Below, in pieces: positions 1,257-3,072 of a stretch of 64,000 nucleotides of DNA. The stretch covers positions 1-64,000 of the forward strand of contig NZ_CAJHBI010000005.1 in the NCBI RefSeq assembly GCF_904846605.1. The letters run 5' to 3'. How positions within the stretch are numbered: the stretch's first letter is position 1; every line of letters starts with the position of its first letter. The DNA is from Psychrobacter sp. 72-O-c. GTDB taxonomy: Bacteria > Pseudomonadota > Gammaproteobacteria > Pseudomonadales > Moraxellaceae. A program made the translations under genes and the position numbers. Under the pieces are notes generated by a model, which searched no databases, was not told where the DNA came from, and saw only the letters and a list, made by a program, of their open reading frames with translations.

Positions 1257-1328
1257 TGCAAGAATAACTTGCAAAATACTTTCTATGAAATACTTGCATT
1301 CAAGCTAAAAATGCAATAATATCTTGCA
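1257..1328. promoter_or_regulatory. Array of three operator-like dyads
   Basis: Three 17-bp sites share the layout TGCAAG-N5-CTTGCA with an A/T-only centre. Site 1 at 1257-1273 (TGCAAGAATAACTTGCA) is a perfect dyad. Site 2 at 1282-1298 keeps only the right half (CTTGCA). Site 3 at 1312-1328 (TGCAATAATATCTTGCA) has one mismatch. Centres are 25 and 30 bp apart. The array lies 80-150 bp upstream of a gene whose product starts with an XRE-type helix-turn-helix, so autoregulation is the simplest inference. Nothing here proves which protein binds. Confidence 0.6.
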
Positions 1329-1407
1329 TTAGGTAACTCATTGATTCAACTATTCAACACTATATTTATTAGATACTAACTTATTGAAATAAAGGGCTTC
1401 GATAATT

Positions 1408-3072
1408 ATGGATAAGGATCAAAGCAAACAGAAACAAGCTGAACGCTTAGTAAAGCTACGTCGCGATAAGGGACTGACTGCTGAGAAATTGGCCCAAGCA
1501 ATGACAGAAGCTGGTGCAAAGGTCAGCCGCGGTGCTATCTCTAATTGGGAACGTGGCACTAATGGTATCGTCTCCTCAAAGCTCCCTACTCTGGCGAGAA
1601 TCTTAGGTTGTAGCGAAGGCTATCTGTTACGCGGCGACCATCATACTGACATTGTCGCTGATACTAATCTGAATGCCCAACAAAGCAACGTCCTAAGCAA
1701 AAACGTCACTGGTGCTGAATCAACAGATGCAAAACCTGCTAATGCTAATAACAGTCAAACTAAACCACCAGCCAATAAGTCAACAACCACAACTAGTACC
1801 CGTACAGACTCACAAAATAATACTATGGATGGTAACTCTATGAGTGCATTGAAAAAATCCGATAAATTACAAAATGTCTGCTATGACATTCGTGGTCCGT
1901 TACTACAAACTGCCAATAAAATGGAAGCGGAAGGTCAGAAAATCTTAAAGCTCAATGTGGGCAACCCAGCTCCTTTTGGCCTTGAGGCACCGCATGAGAT
2001 TCTCCGTGATGTGGCTATGAACTTGCCTGAGGCCACTGGTTACTCAGACTCGCAAGGAATCTTTGCAGCGCGTAAAGCAGTATTGCAATATTATCAAGCA
2101 AAAGGGTTACTGTCTGCGGTCGACGTACGTGACGTGTATTTGGGTAACGGCGTTTCTGAGCTGATTGTCATGACTATGCAAGCACTTATGAATGACGGTG
2201 ATGAGATATTGATTCCCATGCCAGATTATCCGCTATGGACAGCAGCAGCCAACCTAGCTGGGGGTACAGCGGTACATTATCGCTGTAATGAAGAGGACAA
2301 TTGGCATCCTGATATTGAGGATATCAAATCAAAAATTACCAGTAAAACTAAAGGTATTGTGGTCATTAATCCCAATAACCCCACGGGCGCTCTCTACTCA
2401 GACGACCTTCTTAAACAAATTATCGAAGTGGCTATAGAACATGATTTAATCATCATGGCTGATGAGATTTATGATCGCGTCCTTTATGATAATGCGGTTC
2501 ATACGCCAATGAGCACTTTGACTGACGAGGTACTCGTCCTATCATACAATGGACTATCAAAATCACATCGTATCGCTGGATTCCGCGCGGGCTGGATGAT
2601 GGTGTCGGGCAAAAAACAGCACGCTACGGACTTTATTGAAGGCTTAGATATGCTTGCTTCCATGCGCCTATGCTCCAACGTGCTCGGACAATATGCAATC
2701 CAAACAGCGATGGGTGGCTATCAAAGTATGCGAGATCTGACCTCGGAGAAAGGCCGTCTCTATAAGCAGCGTGAATTGGCTATCTCTCGTCTAAATGCGA
2801 TTCCAGGTATTTCTTGTACTATGCCCCAAGGCGCGTTTTATTGCTTTCCAAAGATGGATCCTGCCGTTTATCCCGTCAAAGACGACATGCAGTTTATGAT
2901 GGAGTTGTTACTTGAAGAAAAAGTACTCATGGTACAAGGTACAGGCTTTAACTGGGATGCGCCCGATCACTTTCGTGTGGTGTTCTTACCCAATCTTCAT
3001 GAATTAGAAGATGCGATGGATCGCTTGGATCGCTTCTTTGCGAAGAAACGCCAACAGTTTGGTACCGATTAA
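1408..3072 (+). CDS. XRE-type HTH fused to AlaA-like aminotransferase
   Basis: A 554-residue two-part protein. Residues about 10-75 form an XRE/Cro-type helix-turn-helix (KLRRDKGLTAEKLAQ, then GAISNWERG). Residues about 80-140 are a Thr/Asn/Gln/Ser-rich linker. From residue 145 the sequence closely follows AlaA, the glutamate-pyruvate transaminase (KLQNVCYDIRGP, GNPAPFG, NPNNPTG at 321-327, PLP-binding Lys385 in LSKSHRIAGFR). The enzyme part makes alanine from pyruvate and glutamate. The HTH suggests it also binds DNA, perhaps the dyads just upstream. An internal ATG at 1840 lies exactly at the AlaA start and could give a separate enzyme, though its ribosome binding site is weak. The aminotransferase call is firm; the regulatory role is inferred. 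Confidence 0.9.
   Translation: MDKDQSKQKQAERLVKLRRDKGLTAEKLAQAMTEAGAKVSRGAISNWERGTNGIVSSKLPTLARILGCSEGYLLRGDHHTDIVADTNLNAQQSNVLSKNVTGAESTDAKPANANNSQTKPPANKSTTTTSTRTDSQNNTMDGNSMSALKKSDKLQNVCYDIRGPLLQTANKMEAEGQKILKLNVGNPAPFGLEAPHEILRDVAMNLPEATGYSDSQGIFAARKAVLQYYQAKGLLSAVDVRDVYLGNGVSELIVMTMQALMNDGDEILIPMPDYPLWTAAANLAGGTAVHYRCNEEDNWHPDIEDIKSKITSKTKGIVVINPNNPTGALYSDDLLKQIIEVAIEHDLIIMADEIYDRVLYDNAVHTPMSTLTDEVLVLSYNGLSKSHRIAGFRAGWMMVSGKKQHATDFIEGLDMLASMRLCSNVLGQYAIQTAMGGYQSMRDLTSEKGRLYKQRELAISRLNAIPGISCTMPQGAFYCFPKMDPAVYPVKDDMQFMMELLLEEKVLMVQGTGFNWDAPDHFRVVFLPNLHELEDAMDRLDRFFAKKRQQFGTD

Follow-up and report, generated by a model that had tools for sequence, protein, structure and literature searches.

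Known systems and the locus compared with them

Few trigger enzymes are known, and how they arise is, in our view, poorly understood. For E. coli, the part of the source cited here lists five of them, PutA, NadR, BirA, PepA and PyrH, and describes PutA as binding only to the spacer between putA and putP (PMC8249747). The protein analyzed here is similar in that a metabolic enzyme carries a DNA-binding part, for which the predicted targets are the enzyme's own promoter and few others. It differs in the enzyme, since the five-member list in that part of the source includes no aminotransferase (PMC8249747), and in the combination of AlaA with an XRE domain, relatives having different domains at this place. 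As in a trigger enzyme, an apparently complete catalytic domain and a DNA-binding domain (HTH_3, helices of the structure model) are found in the same protein. Trigger enzymes control transcription, often of their own gene; on this point, what is observed here are conserved promoter repeats that co-occur with the domain.

In MocR/GabR regulators, the DNA-binding domain is N-terminal to a domain of the aminotransferase fold. The relevant part of one description specifies a winged helix-turn-helix of the GntR family and an aminotransferase-like PLP domain (PMC5320631). Our protein shares the N-terminal DNA-binding domain and the PLP domain of this fold, but the former is XRE instead of GntR and the latter is a full AlaA homologue. 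Membership in the MocR group was rejected because the DNA-binding domain is the wrong one (XRE, no Pfam match to GntR). E. coli AlaA (4cvq) displays the same motifs, without the N-terminal domain. Phage repressors of the CI/DicA type occur as standalone proteins or with a peptidase domain; their helix-turn-helix (HTH) is of the same sequence class, here joined to an aminotransferase. A fusion of AlaA to a DNA-binding domain was not found described in the titles and abstracts of the part of the open-licence literature that was searched.

Our main reading, to which we assign a probability of about 0.77 from the sequence evidence, is that of a trigger enzyme. The catalytic AlaA would form a dimer, and its XRE domains would bind repeats in the promoter of alaA, repressing this gene and, in Psychrobacter, probably ilvA as well. 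The reading also yields a testable prediction of how alanine is controlled in Psychrobacter, Moraxella and Acinetobacter.

An XRE domain and a complete AlaA in one protein

The window (the whole stretch of 64,000 nucleotides from Psychrobacter sp. 72-O-c) contains the fusion gene on the forward strand at 1408..3072, stop codon included, as a single open reading frame of 554 amino acids. The original prediction let the feature begin at 1257, which is the first base of the inverted repeat O1; the gene itself starts at 1408. The XRE/Cro-CI-type HTH covers residues 9-78 (1432..1641, plus strand), in agreement with two Pfam models, HTH_3 (residues 16-73; 24.9 bits against a cut-off of 23) and HTH_19 (residues 12-76; 28.5 bits, slightly below the cut-off of 30.2). 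Its PHROG matches are phage repressors (PHROG 4, 3 and 8, best 3.7e-12), and the DicA model scored 32.6 bits, under its cut-off of 101. As predicted, the DNA-binding part is of a family other than GntR: the models that match are of the XRE type, and no GntR was present among the eight Pfam families with E-values up to 1.

The HTH is followed by a fast-evolving linker (residues 79-144, 1642..1839, plus strand) and by the alanine aminotransferase (residues 145-554, 1840..3069, plus strand). The enzyme part matched Pfam Aminotran_1_2 at residues 178-539 (197.5 bits). The closest solved protein is E. coli AlaA (4cvq, 564 bits, alignment starting at residue 142), the next one reaching 292 bits; the NCBIfam alanine aminotransferase model NF006230 scored 351.3 bits, below its cut-off of 534. 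The motifs NPNNPTG, ADEIYD and GLSK and a C-terminal Arg, which we take to be the active-site and PLP motifs of AlaA, are conserved in the enzyme part (alignment A1). Judged by these motifs and by the length of the alignment, the enzyme appears catalytically complete, in line with the expectation that AlaA is fully catalytic.

An AlphaFold2 model built from 20 sequences (mean pLDDT 70.7) displays five helices within residues 3-75, a linker (79-149) with pLDDT below 50 and then the AlaA fold, with two weak stretches at residues 186-216 and 422-440. Foldseek returned 4cvq as the top match to this model, with 57-58% identity across the enzyme. Thus, the predicted order of an XRE HTH (placed at residues 10-75), a linker and a complete AlaA is confirmed in one protein, with HTH_3 over its cut-off, 564 bits to 4cvq and a consistent model. 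This gene encodes the only close AlaA in its own genome, where six other matches are 21-29% identical and cover parts of the enzyme; a single AlaA match at E 1e-60 was found in most genomes searched.

Upstream, a divergent msrB-like gene, named from its sequence, is located at 327-752 and leaves a gap of 655 bp (753-1407) before alaA. The same divergent order upstream of alaA is seen in basal genera of the family, with a much shorter gap.

The XRE domain is conserved and under purifying selection

The XRE stretch is encoded in all 61 same-genus loci that were fetched, and the fusion is present in P. immobilis as well. Absence or frame disruption of the HTH in close relatives, named in the original prediction as a finding that would refute it, is not the rule: the domain is absent from none of the 61 loci, and the frame is disrupted in two, L057 (in the 5' part) and L117 (in the enzyme part), both from genomes given as 84-85% complete. 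Selection was analyzed in 58 Psychrobacter sequences with 600 random pairs, leaving out L057, L064 and L117. The pN/pS ratio was 0.083 for the XRE domain and 0.081 for AlaA, as compared to 0.765 for the linker. Purifying selection on the XRE domain in Psychrobacter is as strong as that on the enzyme, and residues 39-49 (VSRGAISNWER, 1522-1554, plus strand) are invariant in 58 of 58 loci. The domain is looser in Moraxella, with a ratio of 0.334 versus 0.144 for the enzyme (nine loci).

These results bear on whether the N-terminal part could be an accidental in-frame extension or an annotation artefact. Some outgroup genes do have long upstream extensions of spurious appearance, judged by eye, but the low pN/pS of 0.083, the invariant recognition stretch and the Pfam match make this explanation barely credible, and we consider an annotation artefact ruled out by the selection analysis.

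Operator-like repeats in the alaA promoter

Two operator-like inverted repeats with the pattern TGCAA-N7-TTGCA were found upstream of the gene (no strand assigned): O1, TGCAAGAATAACTTGCA, at 1257..1273, an exact match conserved in 58 Psychrobacter loci and in Moraxella XRE-type loci, and O2, TGCAATAATATCTTGCA, at 1312..1328, 55 bp from O1. Between them, a conserved half site, CTTGCATT (1293..1300, plus strand), contains a putative -35 box TTGCAT (1294-1299). O2 lies over a putative -10 box TAATAT (1317..1322, plus strand), with a spacing of 17 nt to the putative -35; this pair of boxes was not among the results of the promoter scan. When the sequences upstream of alaA in the 58 loci were aligned, the islands TGCAAG-N5-CTTGCA, CTTGCATT and TGCAATAATATCTTGCA stood out as very highly conserved amid poorly kept sequence, and the columns of O2 were conserved at 0.9 or higher. 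For O1, the scan listed a minus-strand stem; we rejected a terminator because the conservation of O1 together with O2 and the motif in Moraxella suit an operator better.

The repeats co-occur with the XRE domain. An exact TGCAAN7TTGCA within 300 bp upstream was present in 67 of the 77 XRE-type loci (one, L064, was dropped because of its short upstream sequence) and in 0 of 94 others, at a frequency in shuffled sequences of 0.000-0.002. When the search was relaxed to one mismatch and any of three spacings over 600 bp, sites were found in 72/78 XRE-type loci, whereas the numbers for the other types (0/32, 0/4, 1/7 and 5/51) were near the shuffled expectation. The motif patterns were defined after inspection of the sequences, and TGCAAN7TTGCA was first noticed in Psychrobacter. 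All nine XRE-type loci of Moraxella matched at nine or ten of ten positions (seven at ten), with a chance of about 5.7% per locus. L076 (G116), the only fetched Moraxella-type locus without the domain, gave no match to the operator, and it looks like the XRE domain and the operator have been lost jointly there. Within the window, nine sites were found with one mismatch allowed, against 5.4 expected, which is not clearly over chance; the case for an operator depends on the sites being exact, conserved and paired. Each of 16 same-genus genomes scanned had the TGCAATAATATCTTGCA site at alaA; stray single matches were found at other places of these genomes and in 5 of 7 from the outgroup.

The exact motif is missing from 10 of the 77 XRE-type loci, and even a site with one mismatch is missing from six of 78 (L067-L069, L077, L078 and L094). 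These six loci are from genera g28, g29, g35 and g37, and their recognition stretch starts with SRA or SKA, not SRG. Inspected by eye, their promoters contain related half sites or variants such as TGTAAG-N5-CTTGC. L065 and L066 (g28, SRA) have a site with one mismatch.

Because a DNA-binding domain in the protein is matched by conserved sites in the promoter, it is very probable that AlaA controls the gene encoding it. This supports the suggestion of the original prediction that the enzyme acts on its own promoter, as far as the co-occurrence of operator-like repeats with the type of fused domain can indicate. AlaA would form a dimer, and its N-terminal XRE domains would occupy O1 and O2 and repress alaA, probably along with ilvA in Psychrobacter; the dimer, the binding, the repression and the promoter boxes are all inferred. 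Since O2 lies over the putative -10 and O1 is 55 bp upstream, the bound protein would block RNA polymerase, and repression would set the level of AlaA by the amount of AlaA itself. More speculatively, repression might be relieved or strengthened by a substrate or by the PLP/PMP state, the effector being a guess.

A domain that binds DNA without a transcriptional role, in nucleoid tethering or stabilization of the enzyme, is an improbable alternative. It is suggested by the function of StbA, a possible relative of the TRK domain described below, in plasmid stability and positioning, according to the part of the source cited (PMC3098194). The arguments against it are that the sites coincide with the promoter region and cover the putative -10, and that the own genome contains only eight exact sites.

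A second candidate target, ilvA

Of these eight exact sites, two are at alaA, five overlap open reading frames of at least 80 amino acids and one precedes an ilvA-like gene, which we take from its own sequence to encode a threonine dehydratase. This site, TGCAATTGCGCCTTGCA, lies outside the window at G000:C13:40723-40739, 104 bp before the gene. Of 30 Psychrobacter loci examined (the best 30 of 58 matching genomes), 27 have such a site, some of them with a different neighbouring gene. The block with the site is kept far better than the sequence upstream of it. Immediately downstream follows a conserved AT-rich block that may be the ilvA promoter. Outside Psychrobacter, the ilvA site was mostly not found, a score of 9/10 being reached in 2/18 XRE-type and 1/9 non-XRE loci. 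Based on the distribution of the exact sites and their conservation at these two genes, the likely target set consists of alaA and, in Psychrobacter, ilvA.

Other N-terminal domains on AlaA in the family

AlaA was matched in 294 of 299 genomes of the family, and 172 loci were fetched and typed by the N-terminal extension, which varies by genus: 78 XRE, 32 StbA-like (TRK), 7 FVG, 4 MYF (from three genomes) and 51 with none. The last group includes 18 outgroup loci from the same order and two gene fragments (L147 and L148). No recognised N-terminal domain was found in genera g23-g27 and g33 or in the 18 outgroup loci. The search for the architecture across Moraxellaceae, which the original prediction had proposed, recovered XRE-AlaA in Psychrobacter, Moraxella and further genera such as g28, g29, g35 and g37, whereas still other genera had other domains or none. 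Both these other domains at the same place and the second candidate target, ilvA, are absent from that prediction. Among the 80 named matches listed, domains were seen by eye in Moraxellaceae only, XRE in Psychrobacter and Moraxella and TRK in Acinetobacter.

The TRK domain, of about 55 amino acids, is found on AlaA of Acinetobacter (g36) and g30, with 12 of 40 fetched g36 loci lacking it. It matched the plasmid StbA profile at 3.5e-4, and it is named only StbA-like because its score to NF041290, 21.2 bits, is far below the cut-off of 100. Standalone homologues, 59% identical, are encoded on Acinetobacter plasmids. The FVG domain is found in genus g34; its sole plasmid match, in Bradyrhizobium (42%, 8e-5), is divergent from an S24 peptidase gene, in the position of a Cro. 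The MYF domain is found in genus g32 and has 34-36% identical homologues on small mobilisable plasmids, of which the two records that were opened are typed IncQ2.

None of TRK, FVG and MYF gave a convincing Pfam match, nor did a fold search with the three-helix model of TRK, and their role as DNA-binding domains is for this reason inferred only. The pN/pS ratios of domain and linker were 0.149 and 0.451 for TRK, 0.359 and 0.890 for FVG, and 0.317 and 0.958 for MYF, with the domains above the enzyme. It seems that relatives have come to the arrangement seen here with unrelated domains in place of XRE.

Repeats at the other types and at plasmid homologues

An 11-bp direct repeat, GCAAANAGNANGCAA, was found exactly in 29/32 TRK loci and in 0/139 others; with one mismatch it was also present in two XRE-type loci (L044 and L057). 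FVG loci contained ATAGGGAATANCCTAT in six of seven cases, as compared to none of 164 others. The signal was weak for MYF, with TGACAGATA in two of four loci and also in 1/77 XRE-type loci. TRK resembles the plasmid proteins StbA/TraK in its weak profile match and in direct repeats with a period of 11 bp, and differs in being fused to AlaA. The part of the source cited reports binding of StbA from R388 to direct repeats of 9 bp, TTGCATCAT, at a spacing of two (PMC3098194). In our reading, the Acinetobacter alaA repeat would have, on the other strand, the same 9+2 layout and the TTGC core of these sites.

Similar sites accompany the standalone homologues. Two plasmid stretches each have a single exact TRK repeat, located upstream of the gene for the TRK homologue. 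By eye and without shuffles, TGACAG/CTGTCG words were seen before the genes of two MYF homologues and ATAGG/CCTAT words before that of the FVG homologue. The plasmids L189 and L190, typed IncQ2, encode a hypothetical protein of about 155 amino acids, possibly an unrecognised autoregulator; the 140 bp preceding the gene contain six TGACAG/CTGTCG/CCGACA words.

For Acinetobacter and g30, the repeat with at most one mismatch was present in all 42 loci with the domain (35 exact, one identical pair included) and in 0 of 15 without it. A DNA tree of these genes offers 5 independent pairs on starred branches and 11 on all branches. On average, the exact repeat followed the domain in 3.8 of 5 pairs, and it never went the opposite way (sign test, median p 0.125), and with only five independent pairs the test is unable to reach significance. 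Independent cases of domain and motif are few (four domain types), since the two are inherited together.

These patterns also bear on the idea that the repeats are bound by a separate regulator and that the fused domain is a tether or a relic. XRE proteins are common, which lends the idea some weight, but two other N-terminal types have other repeats, the standalone homologues have similar sites, domain and repeat are both missing in 15 of 15 Acinetobacter-type loci and the XRE domain is not decaying. We regard a separate regulator as quite improbable, and binding by the fused domain itself remains our preferred explanation.

The domain-free loci of the Acinetobacter type (L087-L089, L121, L124, L137, L144 and L174-L178) have other conserved words upstream, such as TTTACGCTAG...CTAG, perhaps the site of another regulator or the promoter of the divergent gene.

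A possible second start within the fusion gene

The first residue of the enzyme part, Met145 (1840..1842, plus strand), is close to the ancestral AlaA start and is a possible internal start codon. Two products might be made, a minor long XRE-AlaA and a major short AlaA from a start near Met145, the short form doing most of the catalysis and perhaps titrating the long form in mixed dimers. This idea is compatible with a trigger enzyme, and we hold it to be possible but rather doubtful. A Met at most 16 amino acids from KSxKL is present in 75/78 XRE, 25/32 StbA-like, 7/7 FVG and 4/4 MYF loci, and at residue 145 in 56 of 58 Psychrobacter loci, whereas XRE-type linkers elsewhere contain 42 Met in 3596 codons. 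The mean best anti-Shine-Dalgarno energy at this Met was -3.1 kcal/mol, as compared to -0.28 kcal/mol for the linker background; at the basal domain-free starts, 8 of the 10 shown were between -2.5 and -4.3 kcal/mol. In the window, the energy was -6.8 at Met145 and -4.4 at the long start.

These observations come from related sequences that are not independent, and the Met may persist owing to its position next to the folded enzyme. Among the StbA-like loci, the nearby Met is missing in 7/32 and five more lack a Shine-Dalgarno-like energy at it, while Met elsewhere in the linkers is not rare (12 of 260 codons). Still, a Met kept near the old start, with a Shine-Dalgarno strength over the linker background, suggests that free AlaA may also be made, alongside a long form acting as the trigger enzyme.

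History of the fusions

In a quick enzyme tree with 66 rows, the domain-free genera were basal in the family. FVG formed one clade (99) beside domain-free genera. The MYF sequences were likewise a single clade (99) and clustered with TRK and the domain-free Acinetobacter sequences (80). The XRE rows grouped at 93, all except L077; as the tree does not fix the place of L077, a single origin of XRE is possible. From the tree, XRE may also be the older state of the larger clade, swapped later, and the number of domain captures is provisional. Relatives display no domain, four different domains or apparent loss, mostly with matching sites, which makes the origin of enzyme autoregulation traceable and testable.

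Tentatively, and at slightly under even odds, we propose that within this one bacterial family AlaA has several times captured the gene of a plasmid or phage regulator together with its promoter and operator, each single fusion giving a self-repressing enzyme. At least four unlike modules (XRE, StbA-like, Cro-like and a small-plasmid type) would have been used, perhaps swapped and lost, the old start often being kept so that free enzyme is made too. In the simplest case, a regulator gene would have been inserted before alaA, along with the promoter and operator belonging to it, and fused in frame. The arrival of the regulator with its own promoter and operator would explain why the domains are paired with operators of their own kind.

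Matches to the Moraxella phages Mcat18 and Mcat15, at 64%, had suggested a phage origin. The Mcat18 record (KR093642, L191, first 1.5 kb) begins with an unannotated XRE-AlaA gene with 86% DNA identity over 698 bases to that of a Moraxella-type genome. We did not retain a phage origin from Mcat18, taking this gene to be the host's own alaA in an over-extended prophage record.
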